A stretch of DNA of 64,000 nt. Source: Roseithermus sacchariphilus (GTDB lineage: Bacteria > Bacteroidota > Rhodothermia > Rhodothermales > MEBIC09517). The translations under genes and the position numbers were made by a program. Location: positions 1,163,447 to 1,227,446 of the forward strand of contig CP030158.1 of assembly GCA_003285105.1 (NCBI GenBank), in the 5' to 3' direction. The notes beneath the pieces are model-generated. The model was given only the letters and a program-made list of their open reading frames with translations. It was not told the DNA's origin and did not search any database. Of the stretch, positions 9,115 through 19,148 are shown in pieces. Numbering within the stretch: the first letter of the stretch is position 1; every line of letters starts with the position of its first letter.

Positions 9115-10446
9115 ATGATGCGTCGTTGCATGCTGGTCGCGGTGATGCTGGTCGCGGCCGGATGGGGAACGGAGGGCGCCCGGGCGCAACGCCTGTTCTG
9201 GCTGGGCACCCTGGGCGGCCCGGAGAGCAAGGCCCTGGGCGTCTCGAACAACGGGGTGGTGGTGGGCTATGCCACGAACCTCGCCGGCGAGTCGCGGGCG
9301 TTTCGGTGGACGGAGGCGAGCGGTATGCAGGACCTGGGCGCGCTGATCCTGTATTCGACCCACAGCTACGCCTATGACGTATCGGAGGACGGATCGGTCG
9401 TCGTCGGGCAATCCCATCGTCCGTTTCGGTGGACGGAGCCGAGTGGAATGCAACCCATTGACACCGATCATTTAGGAGTTGCCTCCAGTGTTTCGTACGA
9501 CGGGAGCCTGAGCGGGGGCTGGTTCTTCGATGGGGCAACCGGTCGTGACAGGCCTTTCCGGTGGACGGAATCTTCCGGCATGGACATACTTTTCGAGGAT
9601 GCAGGCCACGCGTTCGTTCGGGGCGTCTCCGGGGATGGCTCGGTCTGTGTCGGCTCCCTCGGTGATGTCAGTCCGCGCGCCTTCCGTTGGACGGAAGCCA
9701 CGGGGGTGCAGGACCTGGGCACGCTCGGCGGCTCGGAGAGCGTGGCGTATGCCGCGGACGAGGACGGCAGCGTGATCGTGGGCTATGCCGTGAACACCAG
9801 CGGCCACCGCCGTCCGTTCCGCTGGACGAGTTCCGCGGGCATGACGGACCTGACGAGTCTGGGCCTGGTCAGCGAGGCCCTGGACGTCTCGGCCAGCGGG
9901 CAGAAAATCGTGGGCTACTACGTGATCAACGGCACCGAGGACGAGCGGGCCGTGCAATGGAACCTGTTTCCGGTCCTTTCCATCCGCAACCTGACCGGCC
10001 ACTACGCGGACCTGCTCAGCGCGGGCTCGGTGCTCAACCGGGCCGAAGCGATCTCCCCGGATGGCCGGTACATCGCCGGCTGGGGGTTCAACGCGGAGAC
10101 GGGGCGGACGGAGGCCTTCCTGCTCGATACCAGCGTGTCAACGGCCGTAGAGGACGCCACCCTGCCGCAGGAGGCGGTGCTGGCCGGGGCGTACCCGAAC
10201 CCGTTCCGGCTGTCGACCACGCTGGGGTTTACGGTGAGCCGTCCGGGGCCGGTCCGCCTGCAGGTGTACGACGCGCTGGGGCGGCTGGTGCGGTCCCTCG
10301 TCGACGAGCACCGTGGCGTCGGCGCCTACCAGGTCGTTTGGGACGGTCGTGACGCGGCCGGCCGGGAGGTGCCCGCCGGGGTGTACCTGGTACGGTTCGA
10401 GACGGGCGGCCATGCGCAGACCCGCACGCTGGTCGTGCTCCGCTAG
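9115..10446 (+). CDS. Secreted HAF-repeat protein with C-terminal T9SS-type sorting domain
   Basis: 443 residues. A signal peptide (about 1-24, ending ARAQ) leads into at least five HAF-type repeats of the form F-R-W-T-E-x-S-G-M-x-D-L-G followed by A-x-x-V-S-x-D-G-S-V-x-V-G. These probably form beta-propeller blades. The last ~85 residues begin YPNPF and contain LQVYDALGRLVRSL and GVYLVRFETG, a FlgD-like/type A sorting domain used for export by the type IX system and surface attachment. The enzymatic role, if any, is unknown. ATG 9115 is preferred to GTG 9109. Confidence 0.85.
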   Translation: MMRRCMLVAVMLVAAGWGTEGARAQRLFWLGTLGGPESKALGVSNNGVVVGYATNLAGESRAFRWTEASGMQDLGALILYSTHSYAYDVSEDGSVVVGQSHRPFRWTEPSGMQPIDTDHLGVASSVSYDGSLSGGWFFDGATGRDRPFRWTESSGMDILFEDAGHAFVRGVSGDGSVCVGSLGDVSPRAFRWTEATGVQDLGTLGGSESVAYAADEDGSVIVGYAVNTSGHRRPFRWTSSAGMTDLTSLGLVSEALDVSASGQKIVGYYVINGTEDERAVQWNLFPVLSIRNLTGHYADLLSAGSVLNRAEAISPDGRYIAGWGFNAETGRTEAFLLDTSVSTAVEDATLPQEAVLAGAYPNPFRLSTTLGFTVSRPGPVRLQVYDALGRLVRSLVDEHRGVGAYQVVWDGRDAAGREVPAGVYLVRFETGGHAQTRTLVVLR

Positions 10447-10643
10447 CCGGCGCCTCCGCGGTTCATCCGGAATCATCCGCCTGTCTTCATCGGCACCGGT
10501 TTTTCGCCTTTCGCCGGGCCACCACAGGGGTCTTTTGTCGGCCTCCGTCGGCTTCGCACCCTCCCGAACCAACCGGCTCCCTCGCTCGTTCACGGTCCCT
10601 CTCAATCACTGACTGCGGATGGCCGATAGCCGACAGCTAGATC

Positions 10644-12563
10644 ATGTCCGATTATTTCACCTATGACGTCATCGTCGTTGGCGGCGGGCACGCCGGGAGC
10701 GAGGCGGCCGCAGCGGCGGCCCGGATGGGCGCGCGCACGCTGCTCGTCACGATGAACCTGGAGGCCATCGGGAAGATGTCGTGCAACCCCGCCATCGGTG
10801 GGATCGGCAAGGGCCACATCGTCCGCGAGATCGACGCCCTCGGCGGGGTGATGGGTGTCGTCACCGACCGGGCGGGCATCCAGTTCCGCATGCTCAACCA
10901 GCGCAAGGGGCCGGCCGTGTGGGGCCCCCGTGCGCAGTGCGACCGCATGGCCTACGCCGCGGCCGTGCGCCAGACGCTGGAGGAGATCCCGGGCCTTTAC
11001 ATGCGGGCGGACATGGTCGTGGACCTGCTCGTCGACGACGGGCCGGACGGCCGGCGCGTGGCCGGCGTGCGGACCCGCCTCGGGCAGACCTTCCGGGCGC
11101 GGGCCGTCGTCCTGACCAGCGGGACGTTCATGAACGGGCTCATCCACGTCGGCGAGAACCGCTTCGGCGGGGGGCGCATGGGCGAGGGGGCTTCGACGGG
11201 CCTGACCGCCGCGCTGCACGCCCTCGGCTTCGAGAGCGGCCGCCTCAAGACCGGCACGCCGCCCCGCGTGGACGGGCGCAGCCTCGACGTCGGCGTCATG
11301 CAGGAGCAGCCCGGCGACCCGCAGGCCAGCCCCTTCTCCTACCTCACCGACCGGCTGCCGGACGACCAGCTCAGCTGCTGGCTGACCTACACCACCCCGC
11401 GCACGCACGAGATCCTGCGCACCGGCTTCGACCGCAGCCCCATGTTCACCGGCCGCATCCAGGGCCGGGGGCCGCGCTACTGCCCGTCCATCGAGGACAA
11501 GATCGACCGCTTTGCGGAGAAGGAACGCCATCAGATCTTCATCGAGCCCGAAGGCCGTCACACCCACGAGGTGTACGTCAACGGCTTCTCGACGAGCCTG
11601 CCCGAGGAGGTGCAGTTCGAGGCGCTGCGCACGATTCCGGGGATGGAGCGCGCCCACCTGCTGCGGCCGGGCTATGCCATCGAGTACGACTACTTCCCGC
11701 CCTATCAGATTCGCTACAGCCTGGAGACGAAGGCGATCCGCGGGCTGTTCTTCGCCGGGCAGATCAACGGCACGACGGGCTACGAGGAGGCCGCGGCGCA
11801 GGGGCTCATCGCCGGCATCAACGCTGTGCAGCACCTCCGGGGCGAGGAGCCGCTGGTGCTCAAGCGCTCCGAAGCCTACATCGGCGTGCTCATCGACGAC
11901 CTCGTGGCGAAGGGCACGGAGGAGCCCTACCGCATGTTCACCTCCCGCGCCGAGCACCGCATCCTGCTGCGCCAGGACAACGCCGACCAGCGCCTCACCG
12001 AGCGGGGCTACCGGCTCGGCCTCGTCGGTGCCGAGCGCTATGCCCGCTTCCGGCGGAAGCAGGAGGCGCTGGCCCGCCTCCGCCGCTACCTGGAAGACAC
12101 CTCCGTGCGGCCCGAGCAGGTCAACGGCTACCTGGAGGCCGTCGGGACCTCGCCCATCAGCGAGCCCGAGCGGCTGGCCCGGCTCGTCCTCCGCCCGCAG
12201 GTGTCGCTGGCGGCGCTGCTGGCTCACACCGGCCTCGGCATCGACGTCGACGCGCCCGGCCTCGAACGCCCCGAGACGCTCGTCGAGATCGAACTGAAAT
12301 ACGCCGGCTACGTCGAGCGCGAGCAGGAGCTGGTGCGCAAGATGGAGCAGCTCGAGGGCTGGCGCATCCCGGAGGGCTTCGACTACCACGCCCTCTCGAA
12401 CATCACGATGGAAGCGCGCGAGAAGCTCGGCAAGATCCAGCCCGAAACGCTCGGGCAGGCCTCGCGCATCAGCGGCGTCAGCCCGGCCGACGTGTCGGTG
12501 CTGATGGTGCTGTTGAAGAAGCACGGCGGCACCGCCCGCCGCCCGGAACCGGTAGAAGCCTAG
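10644..12563 (+). CDS. mnmG: tRNA uridine-5-carboxymethylaminomethyl modification enzyme MnmG (GidA)
   Basis: 639 residues. FAD- and NADH-dependent partner of MnmE for U34 modification. The dinucleotide motif GGGHAGSEAA is at about residues 12-21. The family signatures GGIGKGHIVREIDALGG and GPRAQCDR follow, and TGTPPRVDGRS is near 207-217. The C-terminal helical domain contains the ISGVSPADVSVLMV stretch used to dock MnmE. Full length for the family. Confidence 0.97.
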   Translation: MSDYFTYDVIVVGGGHAGSEAAAAAARMGARTLLVTMNLEAIGKMSCNPAIGGIGKGHIVREIDALGGVMGVVTDRAGIQFRMLNQRKGPAVWGPRAQCDRMAYAAAVRQTLEEIPGLYMRADMVVDLLVDDGPDGRRVAGVRTRLGQTFRARAVVLTSGTFMNGLIHVGENRFGGGRMGEGASTGLTAALHALGFESGRLKTGTPPRVDGRSLDVGVMQEQPGDPQASPFSYLTDRLPDDQLSCWLTYTTPRTHEILRTGFDRSPMFTGRIQGRGPRYCPSIEDKIDRFAEKERHQIFIEPEGRHTHEVYVNGFSTSLPEEVQFEALRTIPGMERAHLLRPGYAIEYDYFPPYQIRYSLETKAIRGLFFAGQINGTTGYEEAAAQGLIAGINAVQHLRGEEPLVLKRSEAYIGVLIDDLVAKGTEEPYRMFTSRAEHRILLRQDNADQRLTERGYRLGLVGAERYARFRRKQEALARLRRYLEDTSVRPEQVNGYLEAVGTSPISEPERLARLVLRPQVSLAALLAHTGLGIDVDAPGLERPETLVEIELKYAGYVEREQELVRKMEQLEGWRIPEGFDYHALSNITMEAREKLGKIQPETLGQASRISGVSPADVSVLMVLLKKHGGTARRPEPVEA

Positions 12564-12598
12564 GGCTGCTGGCTGAGGGCTGCTGGCTGAGGGCTGAC
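12564..12598 (+). repeat. Short tandem repeat, TGCTGGCTGAGGGC type
   Basis: Directly after the mnmG stop the unit GGCTGCTGGCTGAG is repeated about two and a half times. The same word series is found at 36671-36730, 36883-36915 and 54732-54782, always in spacers. Confidence 0.7.
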
Positions 12599-12666
12599 CG
12601 CCGATGGCTTTTCGGCCCTTGCCGTTCGTATGTTTCGGCTTCCTCGTCATCCATCTCGTGCCTCCC

Positions 12667-14031
12667 ATGACCGGCGCCCTCGACCTCGATACCCTCACAC
12701 AGCTCGTCGGCGACGGGGACATCGACACCGTGCTCGTCTGCATGGTGGACATGCAGGGCCGCCTCATCGGCAAACGGGTGACCGGGTGGTACTTCCTCGA
12801 GCAGGTCATCCACGAGATGCATGTGTGTGACTACCTGCTCACCGTGGACATGGAGATGGAGCCGGTGCCGGGCTATGCGGCGGCCTCGTGGGACCTCGGG
12901 TACGGGGACATCGCCATCCGCCCGGACCTCGGCACGCTGCGCCTCGTCCCCTGGCTGCCCGGCACGGCGCTGGTGCTGGGCGACTGCTGCGACCACCACG
13001 GCAACGAGCTGCCCCATGCCCCGCGCAGCATCCTCAAACGCCAGGTCGACCGCCTCGCCGAGCGCGGCATGATGGCGAAGATGGCCTCCGAACTGGAGTT
13101 CTACGTGCTGGACGAGAGCTACGAGTCAGCCCGTGCGAAGGACTACCGGGACCTCAAAACGGCCGGATGGTACATCGAGGATTACCACATCTTCCAGACC
13201 ACCAAGGAGGAGCCGCTCATCCGGGCGATCCGCAACGGCATGGACGGCGCGGCCATCCCGGTCGAGTTCTCCAAGGGGGAGTGGGGACCGGGGCAGGAGG
13301 AGATCAACCTGCGCTACGCCGAGGCGCTGGAGATGGCCGACCGCCACAGCATCTACAAGAATGGCGTCAAGGAGATCGCCTACCTCCACGGCAAGGCCGT
13401 CACCTTCATGGCGAAGTGGCGCTTCGACCTGGCCGGTAGCAGCTGTCACATCCACGCGTCGCTCTGGGACGTGCGCACCGGCCGGCCGCTCTTTTTCGAT
13501 GCCGACGCCGAGGGCGGCATGAGCACGATCATGCGGCATTTCCTGGCCGGACAACTCGCGCTGGCCCGCGAGATGACCTACTTCCTGGCGCCGTACATCA
13601 ACTCGTACAAACGCTTCCAGGCCGGCTCGTTCGCGCCGACGCGCGCCGTCTGGAGCGTCGACAACCGCACGGCGGGCTTCCGGGTGGTCGGTAGCGGAGC
13701 GAGCCTCCGCGTCGAGTGCCGCATCCCCGGCGCCGACGTCAACCCGTACCTCGCCTATGCCGCCACGCTGGCCGCCGGGCTCTACGGCATCGAACACGAA
13801 CTGGAGCTGGAGCCGGCGTTCTCCGGGAATGCCTACGCCGCTGCCGACGTCCGCGAGGTCCCCAAAACCCTCCGCGAAGCCCTGGCCGAACTCGACGGCT
13901 CCGAGGCGTTCCGCACCGCCTTCGGCGATGCCGTGATCGACCACTACCTCCGCGCCGGCCGCTGGGAGCAGGAGGAGTACGACCGGCGCATCACCGACTG
14001 GGAACGGCGGCGCTTCTTCGAGCGGGCGTGA
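12667..14031 (+). CDS. Glutamine synthetase family protein (gamma-glutamyl-amine ligase type)
   Basis: 454 residues from ATG 12667. The beta-grasp N-domain and the catalytic domain of the GlnA fold are visible. Metal and ATP ligands include the SELEFYVLD stretch (about 141-149), GPGQEEINLRYA (about 212-223), the SSCHIHASLWD loop and R-A-V-W-S-V-D-N-R. It lacks the adenylylation loop of GlnA-I and resembles the PuuA/GlnA3/GlnA4 branch that glutamylates polyamines or other amines. It is followed 38 bases later by an aldehyde dehydrogenase gene and then by an Fe-ADH gene, so amine or amino-alcohol catabolism is the likely context (inference). Confidence 0.85.
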   Translation: MTGALDLDTLTQLVGDGDIDTVLVCMVDMQGRLIGKRVTGWYFLEQVIHEMHVCDYLLTVDMEMEPVPGYAAASWDLGYGDIAIRPDLGTLRLVPWLPGTALVLGDCCDHHGNELPHAPRSILKRQVDRLAERGMMAKMASELEFYVLDESYESARAKDYRDLKTAGWYIEDYHIFQTTKEEPLIRAIRNGMDGAAIPVEFSKGEWGPGQEEINLRYAEALEMADRHSIYKNGVKEIAYLHGKAVTFMAKWRFDLAGSSCHIHASLWDVRTGRPLFFDADAEGGMSTIMRHFLAGQLALAREMTYFLAPYINSYKRFQAGSFAPTRAVWSVDNRTAGFRVVGSGASLRVECRIPGADVNPYLAYAATLAAGLYGIEHELELEPAFSGNAYAAADVREVPKTLREALAELDGSEAFRTAFGDAVIDHYLRAGRWEQEEYDRRITDWERRRFFERA

Positions 14032-14069
14032 GGGCCGGGTGGATGTTCCCCGAACCTTCGTCACCCCCT

Positions 14070-15461
14070 ATGTCCCATTCCTTCCAGGTTCACTCGCCCG
14101 TCGACGGTCGCCTGCTGTTCGAGCGGGCGTATGCCGACGAGGCGGCCATCGCCCGCGCGCTGGAGGCGGCGCAAGCGGCTCAGGCCGACTGGCGGCAGCG
14201 TGCCGTCGCCGAGCGCGCCGCGCTGTGCAGCGCGCTGGTCGACCACCTCGTCGGGCAGAAGCAGGTCCTCGCCGAGGAGCTGACCTGGCAGATGGGCCGG
14301 CCCGTGGCACAGACGCCGGGTGAGGTCGGCGGCTTCGAGGAGCGGGCGCGCTACATGATCGGCATCGCCGGGGAGGCGCTGGCCGACGTCCGGCCGGCAC
14401 CGAAGGCCGGCTTCACGCGCTTCATCCGCCGCGAGCCGCTGGGCACCGTGCTGGTGCTCTCGCCGTGGAATTACCCGTACCTGACGGCCGTTAACGCCGT
14501 CATCCCGGCGCTGATGGCGGGCAACGTGGTGCTCCTCAAGCACGCCGAGCAGACGGCGCTGTGCGCCGAACGCCTGGCCGAAGCCGCCCGCGCGGCAGGC
14601 CTGCCGGAAGGGGTGTTCCAGGCGCTGCATCTGACGCACGAAGCCGTGGGGGCGATGCTCCGGGCCGGTGCGGTGGACTTCGTCGCCTTTACCGGATCGG
14701 TGGCGGGCGGGCGCGCCGTGAGCCAGGCCGCGGCGGCCTCGTTCACCGGCGTGGGGCTGGAGCTGGGCGGCAAAGACCCCGCCTACGTCCGCCCGGACGC
14801 GCCGTTCGAGTTCACCGTCGAACACCTGGTCGATGGCGCCTTCTTCAACGTCGGGCAGTCGTGCTGCGCCGTCGAGCGCATCTACGTGCACCGGGATCTC
14901 TACGATCGCTTCGTGGAGGCCTTCGTGGAGCGGGCGCGGGCCTACCGGCTCGGCAACCCGCTGGAGCCGGAGACGACCCTGGGACCGATGGTGCGTACGC
15001 GCGCGGCCGACTTCGTACGGGAGCAGATCGCGGAAGCCGTGGCGCAGGGAGCCCGTCCGCTGATCGACGAAGCCGCCTTCCCGGCCTCGGTGTCCGGCAC
15101 GCCCTACCTCGCGCCGCAGGTGCTCGTCCACGTCGATCATTCCATGCGGATCATGACGGAGGAAACCTTCGGCCCGGCCGTCGGCATCATGCCGGTGGCC
15201 TCCGACGACGAAGCGATTCGCCTCATGAACGACAGCCGCTACGGCCTCACGGCGTCGCTCTGGACCCGCGATGAGGCGGTCGCCCTGCGCCTCGGCGAGC
15301 AGATCGAGACGGGGACGTGCTTCATGAACCGCTGTGATTACCTGGACCCGGCGCTGGCCTGGACGGGCGTGAAGGACTCGGGACGCGGCTGTACCCTGTC
15401 GCGCCTCGGCTACGAACAACTCACCCGGCCCCGGTCGTTTCACCTGCGCCGGGTCGATTGA
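14070..15461 (+). CDS. NAD(P)-dependent aldehyde dehydrogenase
   Basis: 463 residues from ATG 14070; an in-frame ATG at 14043 would add nine. The Rossmann fold carries FTGSVAGGRAV (about 207-217), the catalytic glutamate is in LELGGKDP and the catalytic cysteine is in VGQSCCAVERIYV. MTEETFGPAVGI near the C-terminal part is typical. It ends with GVKDSGRGCTLSRLGYEQLT. It belongs to the succinate-semialdehyde/PuuC-like part of the superfamily. It probably oxidises the aldehyde made in the pathway of its neighbours. Confidence 0.93.
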   Translation: MSHSFQVHSPVDGRLLFERAYADEAAIARALEAAQAAQADWRQRAVAERAALCSALVDHLVGQKQVLAEELTWQMGRPVAQTPGEVGGFEERARYMIGIAGEALADVRPAPKAGFTRFIRREPLGTVLVLSPWNYPYLTAVNAVIPALMAGNVVLLKHAEQTALCAERLAEAARAAGLPEGVFQALHLTHEAVGAMLRAGAVDFVAFTGSVAGGRAVSQAAAASFTGVGLELGGKDPAYVRPDAPFEFTVEHLVDGAFFNVGQSCCAVERIYVHRDLYDRFVEAFVERARAYRLGNPLEPETTLGPMVRTRAADFVREQIAEAVAQGARPLIDEAAFPASVSGTPYLAPQVLVHVDHSMRIMTEETFGPAVGIMPVASDDEAIRLMNDSRYGLTASLWTRDEAVALRLGEQIETGTCFMNRCDYLDPALAWTGVKDSGRGCTLSRLGYEQLTRPRSFHLRRVD

Positions 15462-15465
15462 CGAG

Positions 15466-15600
15466 TGTCGATTTTCGCATGTCGAATGGGGGGAGGGGAA
15501 TGGGGAATGCGGGATGCGGAATGGTAGGACCTCAACGCTCAGCACCCACTCGTCACTCGCCATTCTCCACTCGCCCCTCGTCACTCGTCACTCGAAAATC
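15466..15600 (+). repeat. Low-complexity spacer of CACTCGT and GGAATGCGGGAT words
   Basis: The spacer between the ALDH and Fe-ADH genes is built of short repeated words: GGGAATGCGGGATGCGGAAT in the first half and repeated CACTCGTCACTCG in the second half. The words look like those at the mnmE start (5686-5710). No hairpin or coding sense is seen. Confidence 0.6.
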
Positions 15601-15609
15601 GGCAATCCC

Positions 15610-16773
15610 ATGGATTCAGCCTTCCTCCACGCCGACTGGCACGTCCCCACCCACATTCGCTTCGGGGTGGGCCGCATCGAGGAACTGCCCGGTGTCTGCC
15701 GGATGCTGGGCATCACGCGGCCGCTGCTGGTCACCGACCCCGGCCTGGCTGCGCTGCCCATGCTGCGGGCCATCCTCGCGCGCAATGAGGCGGCCGGGTT
15801 GCCCACGGCCGTCTTCAGCGCGATCAGACCGAATCCGACCGATGCCAACGTGGAGGACGGCCGGGCGGCGTATCGGCGCGGGGGGCACGACGGCGTCATC
15901 GCCGTCGGCGGCGGGAGCGCCCTGGACACGGGCAAGACGATCGCCCTGCTGGCCGGAACGCCCGAGCCGATCTGGGACGTCGGTCCGGACTGGGCCCGGA
16001 TTCCCGCGGCGCGCATCGCCCCGGTGGTTGCCGTGCCCACGACGGCCGGCACCGGCTCGGAGGTCGGCCGGGCCGCCGTCATCACGCGGACGGCCACGCG
16101 CACGAAGGAGATCCCGTTTCACCCCGGCATGATGCCGAAGGCCGTCCTGGCCGATCCCGAGCTGACCGTGAGCCTGCCGCCGCACCTGACGGCCGGTACC
16201 GGCATGGACGCGCTGGCGCACCACCTGGAGGCCTTCTGCGCTCCGTACTATCATCCGATGGCCGACGGGATCGCGGTGGAAGGGATGCGGCGGATCAAGG
16301 ACTGGCTGCCGGTGGCCTATCGGGACGGCACGCACCGGGAAGCCCGTGCCCACATGCTGGCGGCCGCCCTGATGGGCGCCGTCGCCTTCCAGAAGGGGCT
16401 GGGCGTCATCCATGCCCTCAGCCACCCGGTCGGGGCGTTGTACGACACCCATCACGGGCTCACGAACGCCGTGTTCATGCCCTACGCGCTCGCCTTCAAC
16501 CGTCCGGCCATCGAGGAGCGCATGATCCGCCTGGCGCGCTATCTGGACCTGCCTCAGGCCCGCTTCGAGGCCGTGCTGGACTGGACGCTGGCGCTTCGAG
16601 AAACCCTCGGCGTGCCCCACACGCTGGCCGAACTAGGCGTGGACGACGCGCACCTCGACACACTCGTCGCCCAGGCCACCGCCGACCCCACCGCCGCGGA
16701 CAACCCGGTCCCGCTCGATGCGCCGGCGCTGCGGCGGCTGTTCGTGAACGCCCTGGAGGGGAGAATCTCATAA
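15610..16773 (+). CDS. Iron-containing alcohol dehydrogenase
   Basis: 387 residues. The NAD-binding GGGSALDTGK motif (about 100-109), PTTAGTGSE (about 145-153) and the metal ligands in GMDALAHHLEAF and HALSHPVGALYDTHHG mark the Fe-ADH (type III) family. The last ~36 codons (16664-16773) are duplicated at 19039-19148, downstream of the inserted cytochrome island. It may therefore carry an imported or regenerated C-terminus. Substrate unknown; short-chain diols or aldehydes are usual. Confidence 0.93.
   Translation: MDSAFLHADWHVPTHIRFGVGRIEELPGVCRMLGITRPLLVTDPGLAALPMLRAILARNEAAGLPTAVFSAIRPNPTDANVEDGRAAYRRGGHDGVIAVGGGSALDTGKTIALLAGTPEPIWDVGPDWARIPAARIAPVVAVPTTAGTGSEVGRAAVITRTATRTKEIPFHPGMMPKAVLADPELTVSLPPHLTAGTGMDALAHHLEAFCAPYYHPMADGIAVEGMRRIKDWLPVAYRDGTHREARAHMLAAALMGAVAFQKGLGVIHALSHPVGALYDTHHGLTNAVFMPYALAFNRPAIEERMIRLARYLDLPQARFEAVLDWTLALRETLGVPHTLAELGVDDAHLDTLVAQATADPTAADNPVPLDAPALRRLFVNALEGRIS
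16664..16760 (+). repeat. Left direct repeat (3' end of the Fe-ADH gene)
   Basis: 97 bases matching 19039-19135 at 94 positions, with an offset of 2375. The three differences are at 16673, 16678 and 16719. Both copies run on to a stop with similar final codons (GRIS and GRLV). Upstream of 16664 the similarity stops abruptly. Confidence 0.92.
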
Positions 16774-16834: not shown

Positions 16835-16923
16835 CCCGTTGATTCATGCTTTTTTTGCATATCGGGGCCTCCTGGACTCGGCCAGGAGGGGGGTTCTGGT
16901 AGCCACCCCATCTCGTGATACGT

Positions 16924-18156
16924 ATGGACTCCTTCAAATCGGTCTTCATCGCGGTCTTCATTGGGGCGGCCCTCGTGGTTGCGGCGTTCGTGCTTCATGC
17001 TCGGCGTCCTCCCGTAGAAGTCCAGCAGCCGACGCCTGAACTCGTCAGAGCGACGGGAAAGTGTGCGACATGCCACCGGCGGGAGACGCCCGCCATCGTC
17101 GCCGAATACGAGGCAAGCGATCATGCTCGCGTGGGAACCAACTGCCTGGATTGCCACGGTCCCCGAGAGGGGCAGGCTTCCTTCGATCATCGAGGGTTCG
17201 AGTTGACCAAGCAGGTAACGTCGCTCAATTGCCAGCAATGCCATGCGGAGCAGTACGACCAGTTTTTGCGCAGCCGGCATGCTGCGCCGGCGTTTGCTGC
17301 TGTGCGGGGCAGTGCCCCGTTTACTCAGGCTCAGATCGAATTTGCGGAAAGCTATCATGCTGGCGCCGTAGATCGTCCACCCAACGCCCTGGCCATGCTG
17401 GAGGGCGAGGCCGCCATCGCATCCGGTTGCGAAACGTGTCATTCCATTGGCAAGCCCAATCTGGATGGCTCCATCGGCACCTGTACGGCATGCCATGCAC
17501 GGCACCAGGCCTCCATCGAGCTCGCTCGTGAGCCGGAGACCTGCGGTCAGTGCCACATGGGGCCGGATCACTCACAACTGGAGATCTACCGCGAATCCAA
17601 GCACGGGGTGATCTACAACGCACGTCGGGAGCACATGAACCTTTCTGCCGACCCCAAAACGCTCACCGTGGCTGATATGCCCGTACCGACGTGTGCTACC
17701 TGCCATATGAGCGGGCAGGAAGGCCTCGCCGTTACGCACGACGTCACCGAGCGGCTCTCATACTGGCTGTTCGCTCCCGTTTCGGAGCAGCGGCCCACCT
17801 ACCGGCAGGGCCGCGACGAAATGATGCGCGCCTGCGGCAACTGCCACTCGCAGTCGCACACCGAGCGCTTTTTCGAACAGGCCGAGGCCGTCCTCACCGC
17901 TACCAACGACAAGGTCCGGGAAGCCCAGGCCATCATCGAAGAACTCCGCGCGGACAATTTGCTCACGCCTGCCCCGTTCGATGAACCCATCGAGTTTCTC
18001 TGGTTCGATTACTGGCACTATTTCGGACGGACGGCCAAGCACGGTGCATTCATGGGCGGTGCCGACTATGTGCAATGGCACGGCAATTACGAACTGCTGG
18101 CCAAACTCGTCGAGTTGAAGGAGATGGCCGAGGAGATACGCGCTCATGCCGACTGA
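16924..18156 (+). CDS. Octaheme cytochrome c, hydroxylamine oxidoreductase (HAO) family
   Basis: 410 residues from ATG 16924 (GTG 16915 is also possible). An uncleaved or signal helix covers residues 7-25. Eight CXXCH heme-binding motifs begin at 47, 74, 103, 169, 187, 207, 257 and 304. The number, spacing, HGVIYNARREH segment (about 227-237) and the C-terminal KHGAFMGGADYVQWHGNYELL region fit the HAO/octaheme family. Family members oxidise hydroxylamine or hydrazine, or reduce nitrite/hydroxylamine (epsilon-Hao type). The direction here cannot be told without aligning the cross-linking tyrosine. The downstream membrane gene overlaps by 11 bases, so the two are probably co-translated and may exchange electrons. 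Confidence 0.88.
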   Translation: MDSFKSVFIAVFIGAALVVAAFVLHARRPPVEVQQPTPELVRATGKCATCHRRETPAIVAEYEASDHARVGTNCLDCHGPREGQASFDHRGFELTKQVTSLNCQQCHAEQYDQFLRSRHAAPAFAAVRGSAPFTQAQIEFAESYHAGAVDRPPNALAMLEGEAAIASGCETCHSIGKPNLDGSIGTCTACHARHQASIELAREPETCGQCHMGPDHSQLEIYRESKHGVIYNARREHMNLSADPKTLTVADMPVPTCATCHMSGQEGLAVTHDVTERLSYWLFAPVSEQRPTYRQGRDEMMRACGNCHSQSHTERFFEQAEAVLTATNDKVREAQAIIEELRADNLLTPAPFDEPIEFLWFDYWHYFGRTAKHGAFMGGADYVQWHGNYELLAKLVELKEMAEEIRAHAD

Positions 18157-18994
18157 CTCTGGCTCCTCCACCCTTCAACGCTGGCTGGCCGACCGCAGCT
18201 TTTTGCTGGAGGTATTTGTCTTCAGCAATCTGGCTTTTTTGATTCTCGACGTTTCGGTAGCCCACGCCGTCAATGATTTTGCGCATCCGGCCGAGTGGAT
18301 TCCAGTCGGGTTTGCTGTGGTCGGCTCTCTCGCGCTTGGGCTCGCGGTCTTTTTTCGCGTTCGGGGAGTCCCCAGCATGTTGAGATGGGTCGGGGAAGGG
18401 GTGGGATGGATCGGCGTCCTGGTTGGCGTAGCCGGGCTGGTGTGGCACCTGGAAGGACAATTCTTCCAGGTGCTCACGCTGGATCGACTCGTGTACTCCG
18501 CTCCATTCGTCGCTCCGCTGGCCTTTGCCGGGCTTGGGCTCCTGTTGCTCATGAATCGTCGTGTGCCGTCTGAGCACCTGGCCTGGGGCAGGTGGGTGCT
18601 CTTTCTGGCCTGGGGTGGCTTCATCGGCAACTTTGCGCTTTCCCTGGCCGACCATGCTCAGAACGGGTTCTTCTACGCGACGGAGTGGATCCCCGTCATA
18701 GCCAGCGCGCTGGCTGTGGGGTACTTTTTTGCGCTGATCATTCGACCTGCACAGTCCGGGTTCATCCAACTCGGATATTGGATTCTGGGCCTGCAGGTGG
18801 CCGTCGGGATCGTCGGGTTTGGCTTCCACATTGCACCCCTCTTTCAGCCTGCCGATGATCCCTTGATCTATCGGATCATCTTTGGAGCCCCGGTTTTTGC
18901 GCCCCTGCTGTTTATCGACCTGGCCCTCCTTGCCGCCCTGGGCCTGTGGGACGTGCAGACCAAGGTCGAAACGCGGACGCTTGCGGGAGCATGA
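18146..18994 (+). CDS. Eight-helix membrane protein built of two repeats, partner of the octaheme cytochrome
   Basis: 282 residues, not recognised as a named family. Eight hydrophobic segments (about 18-40, 52-72, 82-101, 117-136, 148-168, 182-199, 209-229, 247-266) form two four-helix halves. The halves align with an offset of about 130: H40-x-x-N43 with H170-x-x-N173, E50-W-I-P with E180-W-I-P, H101 with H228, and AP-x-x-APL at 119-125 with 248-254. Two membrane histidines per half could bind heme b, so a quinone-facing electron carrier is a reasonable guess. Its start overlaps the cytochrome gene. Confidence 0.8.
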   Translation: MPTDSGSSTLQRWLADRSFLLEVFVFSNLAFLILDVSVAHAVNDFAHPAEWIPVGFAVVGSLALGLAVFFRVRGVPSMLRWVGEGVGWIGVLVGVAGLVWHLEGQFFQVLTLDRLVYSAPFVAPLAFAGLGLLLLMNRRVPSEHLAWGRWVLFLAWGGFIGNFALSLADHAQNGFFYATEWIPVIASALAVGYFFALIIRPAQSGFIQLGYWILGLQVAVGIVGFGFHIAPLFQPADDPLIYRIIFGAPVFAPLLFIDLALLAALGLWDVQTKVETRTLAGA

Positions 18995-19038: not shown

Positions 19039-19148
19039 TCGTCGCCCGGGCCGCCGCCGACCCCACCGCCGCGGACAACCCGGTCCCGCTCGACGCGCCG
19101 GCGCTGCGGCGGCTGTTCGTGAACGCCCTGGAGGGTCGGCTCGTTTAA
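19039..19148 (+). pseudogene. Orphan second copy of the Fe-ADH 3' end
   Basis: The frame reads IVARAAADPTAADNPVPLDA and continues to the stop at 19146-19148. It matches the true ADH end except for three aligned residues and the last two codons. No start or upstream ADH sequence precedes it. It sits 44 bases before rsmG, so it may mark the original ADH-rsmG junction. Confidence 0.85.

Follow-up and report, generated by a model that had tools for sequence, protein, structure and literature searches.

In silico analysis of the window, the whole stretch of 64,000 nucleotides taken from a 4.8-Mb genome in a single contig, revealed two overlapping genes enclosed by a direct repeat, with the following features:

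16664..16760 (+): left copy of a 97-bp direct repeat, at the 3' end of an intact Fe-ADH gene
16924..18156 (+): octahaem c-type cytochrome gene of the HAO family, from the ATG at 16924 to the stop at 18156, 410 aa
18146..18156 (+): overlap of 11 bp between the cytochrome stop and the membrane-gene start
18146..18994 (+): eight-TM membrane partner gene, from the ATG at 18146 to the stop at 18994, 282 aa, no CXXCH
19039..19135 (+): second repeat copy, 97% identical to the left one; this detached ADH 3' end carries a stop of its own and marks the right edge of the putative inserted segment

Both genes had been predicted to sit on an island, and their composition and the flanking repeat agree with this location. 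The GC3 of the pair is 0.72 and 0.71 versus 0.87-0.95 in the flanking, correctly framed genes mnmG, glnA, Fe-ADH, rsmG and mfd, and the GC content at the pair is about 0.60 versus 0.70. The repeat copies are spaced 2375 bp apart, the repeat core occurs nowhere else in the window, and the C-terminal peptide encoded in the right copy nearly matches that at the end of the Fe-ADH gene. The 2.4-kb segment between the copies holds just the pair, with no further long gene and no integrase. Its insertion probably took place where the Fe-ADH gene ends and duplicated the 3' end of that gene. Rfam gave no match at the locus. The host genome encodes no other HAO-family protein, and neither NrfA nor a copper nitrite reductase (NirK) was found in it over the cut-off.

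The product of the upstream gene has the HAO fold and belongs to the HAO-like octahaem cytochrome family (PF13447). Its characteristic features are: (i) eight CXXCH motifs (C47, C74, C103, C169, C187, C207, C257 and C304), of which C169 corresponds by alignment to the active-site haem 4; (ii) a PF13447 match of 4.7e-30, with 105.2 bits versus a cut-off of 21.9; (iii) a hydrophobic N-terminal membrane anchor at about residues 2-26. Translation starts at the ATG at 16924 rather than at the upstream GTG at 16915, a choice backed by the conserved N-terminus MxFKxVFI of the relatives. The relatives whose cytochrome is not cut by a contig end also possess eight CXXCH motifs, with the exception of two (L048 and L017) with seven each. 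The solved structures nearest by sequence are all HAO-family enzymes, headed by the octahaem cytochrome of Ignicoccus (4qo5, E 5e-41). The same structure, IhOCC, is the closest fold (Z 24.7, rmsd 3.0, 350 aligned residues, 32% identity), and other HAO folds are represented by KsHAO 4n4j (Z 20.8) and NeHAO (Z 20.0).

The protein encoded downstream is built of eight long helices in the AlphaFold2 model (pLDDT 91.9). Coordinates, motifs, the PF13447 match and this model all agree with the ORF pair of the original prediction, an HAO-type octahaem cytochrome and an eight-helix protein without CXXCH whose genes overlap by 11 bases. The halves of the membrane protein align to each other at E 7e-21, which shows that one four-helix unit has been duplicated in tandem, the two copies spanning about residues 12-143 and 144-276. 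Invariant residues, namely H40, H101, H170, H228, D35, D169, N28, Q172 and several Pro/Gly, are clustered at the helix ends of one side, and N43 and E50 are nearly invariant. Positive charges occur at the N-terminus and in the 2-3, 4-5 and 6-7 loops, with a mixed charge in the 4-5 loop. This pattern most likely places both protein ends in the cytoplasm (N-in/C-in topology) and the four invariant His on the periplasmic side, the side of the cytochrome. The His form the pairs H40/H101 and H170/H228, located at the periplasmic end of helices 1 and 3 of each four-helix unit. Two His per four-helix unit, in parallel helices 1 and 3, are a usual bis-His b-haem layout of cytochrome b and related proteins. 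As expected of a b-type (bis-His) membrane cytochrome, the membrane protein has pairs of invariant His that lie at the same depth of the membrane in TM helices running in parallel, and it would probably carry one predicted b-haem per unit.

No Pfam or NCBIfam family was found over the cut-off for this protein or its 38 relatives (39 members scanned), the weak matches being scattered among unrelated TM families. A known transporter family, which the original prediction had named as an outcome that would speak against it, is rejected by the same scan. Identity with NapC, NrfH or cM552 is rejected as well, since there is no CXXCH and no PF03264 match, as expected from the claim that the partner is of another kind. 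An NrfD/PsrC identity is dismissed by the lack of PF03916 among the Pfam matches of the 39 members and by hhalign probabilities of 0.4% and 0.1%; that comparison used NrfD-type proteins of the same order, with a weak control in which one NrfD subgroup matched another at E 0.001 and 22%. A PDB sequence search with the protein or its profile gave no relative, and Foldseek with the model gave nothing at E < 0.1, just scattered GPCR and ABC matches. No recognisable quinone site or homologue of known function was found. The structural neighbours that stand out are two soluble two-bundle metalloproteins, 3d19 (Z 17.0, rmsd 3.5, 238 aligned) and 3dby (Z 16.3, rmsd 3.8), with a Foldseek E > 1 and no sequence match; this similarity may reflect a common helical layout. 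A separate observation concerns a homologue of 147 aa that consists of one 4-TM unit, shares the His pattern and has no adjoining haem gene (L019, 1501-1944, minus strand, genome G172), which is a possible ancestor of the membrane partner or a separate family.

The search for the gene pair across genomes, proposed in the original prediction, was carried out on 84,980 species genomes, the query being built from four aligned membrane-protein members, and returned 38 loci from 10 named phyla. In each of them (38/38) the membrane gene is immediately preceded, on the same strand and in the same order, by an octahaem gene or by the 3' part of one truncated at a contig end. The same position is found for every placeable full-length relative (about 50 loci, 10 named phyla), and wherever the upstream flank was readable, in the 38 loci and in whole-genome searches, no full-length membrane gene occurs without the cytochrome, so that the first refuting outcome named in the original prediction, a membrane gene mostly lacking the cytochrome, does not hold. 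Three matches were set aside: the single short match without the cytochrome, L019, is the half-size homologue and not the partner, L089 is a contig-edge fragment, and the cytochrome of L057 is cut by the contig end. Measured from the cytochrome stop, the chosen membrane-gene start lies between -50 and +10 bp for 37 of the 38 relatives, with an overlap in 30; these counts lean on the rule by which the start codon nearest the cytochrome stop was picked; we infer that the two genes are translationally coupled. A third conserved gene beside the pair was not found in the 38 loci. The two largest neighbour clusters were discarded, being judged antisense ORFs of the pair itself, and the remaining clusters are common to two loci at most. 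Neither nitrate or nitrite genes nor ammonia oxidation genes are conserved beside the pair in these loci. The cytochrome and membrane genes form a self-contained two-gene module, just as had been claimed.

The membrane gene is present in 4 of 296 genomes of the host's phylum, and among 294 Planctomycetota genomes it occurs in 11, all of them among the 99 that carry an HAO-family gene (P 4e-6). Of 18 genomes checked, 15 have no PF13447 match other than the partnered gene; two genomes have a second gene, and in one (G444) two PF13447 matches fall within one open frame. A plasmid collection contained no relative of the membrane gene. The cytochrome and the membrane protein co-diverge, as their pairwise distances correlate with a Mantel r of 0.95 (0.73 within the main group; 0/2000 permutations). 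Chance neighbourhood is ruled out by the constant order and strand in 38/38 loci together with the restriction of the partner to a single cytochrome clade. A description of the gene pair was not found in the literature searched, which covered subscription papers in part, so that this absence is not proof.

That clade was identified in a tree of 91 HAO-family proteins, 45 of them partnered; Campylobacterota epsilon-Hao are not among them, and the comparison included 44 partner-less HAO-family genes. All 45 partnered cytochromes lie on one side of one branch with a support of 100/100, and the sister of the window cytochrome is that of a Rhodothermia MAG (L020). Members from Bacteroidota, Marinimicrobia and Planctomycetota interleave within the clade, which suggests that the pair moves between phyla as one unit by horizontal transfer.

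The active site was analysed in an alignment of the partnered cytochromes with 16 anammox-type HAO-family proteins and others. The pair D215-H216, located after haem 6 and taken here to be the Asp-His of the HAO active site, is invariant in the 45 partnered cytochromes. The column of the cross-linking Tyr holds Trp385 in all 45 and Tyr in 8/8 rows of the anammox HAO/HDH type (group L116-L123), and Met377, eight residues before Trp385, is invariant in the same 45 proteins. H67, a likely haem ligand, is replaced by Met in the Ignavibacteria-type branch, as in 4qo5. The score of the cytochrome against the NCBIfam HDH equivalog is 103.8, below the cut-off of 900. Such a combination of Trp with a Met eight positions earlier has been described for epsilon-Hao (PMC8940962), and the missing cross-linking Tyr, which distinguishes the cytochrome from the oxidative HAO/HDH enzymes, has been taken as favouring reduction (PMC8940962, PMC2628731, PMC12758564). 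The alignment suggested in the original prediction, intended to see whether this tyrosine exists, found in its place the Met/Trp pair of the epsilon-Hao type. Because Trp replaces the cross-linking Tyr while haem 4 and Asp-His are kept, reduction of nitrite, NO or hydroxylamine is the most likely activity. On the strength of these residues the protein is most likely a reductive, epsilon-Hao-type HAO homologue and a predicted nitrite/NO/hydroxylamine reductase.

The neighbouring clade (11 rows) possesses the same C-terminal Met/Trp signature and different gene neighbours. In four Bacteroidota loci (L175-L178; genomes G124, G051, G148 and G216) Rieske and cytochrome b genes directly precede an octahaem gene of about 537 aa, an assignment checked with Pfam in L175, and this complex is apparently dedicated to the HAO-family enzyme. 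NapC-type proteins lie beside sister octahaem genes in L176 and L182. Genome G451 has another octahaem gene with a NapA-like molybdopterin oxidoreductase of the Tat type immediately after it (L174, 5476-9446), and the pair with the eight-TM protein is located elsewhere in this genome. No obvious quinol module adjoins the sister genes of L179, L180, L181 and L183. In L176 (G051) the region 10283-16509 contains, together with the Rieske/cytochrome b/octahaem set, genes of the NrfAH type, an octahaem gene and a gene for a NapC-domain protein of 499 aa, and several nitrite-ammonifying systems are possible there. The premise of the original prediction, that HAO-family enzymes use just NapC/NrfH or cM552, was too narrow, as sister clades also use Rieske/cytochrome b; the latter has been proposed for the epsilon-Hao of Caldithrix abyssi (PMC5317091).

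One closely comparable system is epsilon-Hao in the reverse-HURM pathway of Campylobacterota such as Nautilia profundicola, for which quinol-fed nitrite reduction has been proposed (PMC2628731). Both are HAO-family octahaem enzymes with Trp instead of the cross-linking Tyr and Met eight residues before it (PMC8940962). However, epsilon-Hao has been assigned a tetrahaem donor of the NapC/NrfH/cM552 type and often lies near nap genes, whereas here the partner is an eight-TM protein free of haem c and no nap genes are conserved. IhOCC of Ignicoccus hospitalis (4qo5), the closest solved fold, is likewise membrane-associated and devoid of the Tyr, with Phe in that column by alignment, but Val replaces the His of the Asp-His pair and neither H365 nor H386 is present; cytochromes with this Val and Phe pattern (L109-L115) branch outside the partnered clade. 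Anammox and nitrifier HAO and HDH share the HAO fold, eight haems and the Asp-His active site. They differ in having the cross-linking Tyr and no eight-TM partner, and trimer cross-link chemistry is not expected in the window cytochrome. The general arrangement recalls NrfH/NapC-NrfA, in which a membrane quinol dehydrogenase serves a periplasmic multihaem nitrite/hydroxylamine reductase, although the present membrane subunit, devoid of CXXCH and PF03264, is unrelated in sequence. With NrfD/PsrC it has in common the eight TMs in two four-helix bundles, and it differs from them in the lack of any sequence relation and in the four invariant periplasmic-side His. What is new here is the unnamed membrane family as the partner in a quinol-to-octahaem kind of system.

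The most plausible reading, with a probability of roughly 60%, is that the pair encodes a two-subunit membrane-bound oxidoreductase in which the eight-TM protein forms the quinol side and delivers electrons to the octahaem enzyme. Oxidation of (mena)quinol by the eight-TM protein would occur close to the periplasmic face, and its cofactors, probably one b-type haem per four-helix unit, would relay the electrons to the octahaem cytochrome anchored in the membrane beside it. The cytochrome would in turn reduce nitrite, NO or hydroxylamine, towards ammonia. The main argument for a quinol dehydrogenase role of the eight-TM protein is that sister clades often place a quinol-oxidising module next to the cytochrome. 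Since all four His are on the periplasmic side, the electron path would be electroneutral, like that of NrfH.

The cofactor of the membrane subunit could be of another nature. Instead of haem b, the four His could bind Fe, Cu or Zn as a non-haem metal within each of the two units, the protein still being the electron partner or acting on NO or oxygen itself. The resemblance to 3d19, titled a conserved metalloprotein, and to 3dby points in this direction, as do the invariant Asp35 and Asp169 and the near-invariant Glu50 close to the His in sequence; but helical models commonly reach a best Z of about 14, Foldseek gives E > 1 and there is no sequence similarity to either protein. A metal site is considered unlikely. 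Quite unlikely, and ranking behind it, is a subunit without any redox cofactor that, like NrfD/PsrC, binds quinone and hands electrons straight to the cytochrome. Such a protein would be consistent with the eight TMs, arranged as a pair of four-helix bundles, with the lack of a known cofactor motif and with the position beside a periplasmic electron-transfer subunit, and a precedent exists in NrfD-type subunits, which interact with quinones without redox cofactors according to PMC8076601. On the other hand, PF03916 is not matched, the profile comparison gives a probability of 0.4% (with a weak control), and four invariant His at TM ends exceed the needs of a quinone site.

The same complex might also run in reverse, the cytochrome oxidising hydroxylamine or another reduced nitrogen compound and the eight-TM protein passing electrons to quinone, as in the HURM of nitrifiers. 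The conserved HAO fold, haem 4 and Asp-His active site would allow it, and so would the lack of NrfA and NirK over the cut-off in the host genome. Nevertheless, the Tyr tied to oxidative function is an invariant Trp in 45/45 proteins, the HDH equivalog score is far from its cut-off (103.8 versus 900), and no ammonia oxidation genes are conserved beside the pair. This direction is considered quite unlikely. The lowest probability is given to the eight-TM protein as an assembly or haem-handling factor resembling CcmF or CtaA, with the cytochrome fed by the general quinol:cytochrome c chain. CtaA and similar haem-handling proteins have paired His in duplicated four-helix units, a pattern resembled here, and a maturation factor dedicated to one clade of cytochromes would show the strict linkage observed. 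However, sister clades with the same haem count and signature manage without the eight-TM protein, several having quinol-oxidising modules in its place, and the cytochrome keeps its own membrane anchor. The quinol-fed reductive complex is retained as the preferred reading. Its extension is more tentative, at somewhat less than even odds: the membrane family may be a kind of quinol dehydrogenase not described before, in which a doubled four-helix unit carries two b-haems (or metal sites) on the periplasmic side and serves a single clade of reductive octahaem cytochromes, and the pair a minimal, free-standing two-gene quinol:nitrogen-oxide oxidoreductase horizontally spread over at least 10 bacterial phyla.

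HAO-family enzymes have a key role in nitrification, anammox and reverse-HURM nitrite reduction, and a metagenomic 'hao' gene is often taken as evidence of hydroxylamine oxidation. The partnered clade is a dedicated unit of two genes that combines a new membrane partner with a reductive active-site signature, so that in Planctomycetota, Marinimicrobia, Rhodothermota and others a 'hao' annotation of one of its members should not be taken to mean nitrification. In the host the pair would serve respiration or detoxification and, given that no NrfA or NirK was found over the cut-off, may be the sole route of this kind. The eight-TM family would be a new connection from quinol to a multihaem enzyme, testable with two genes.
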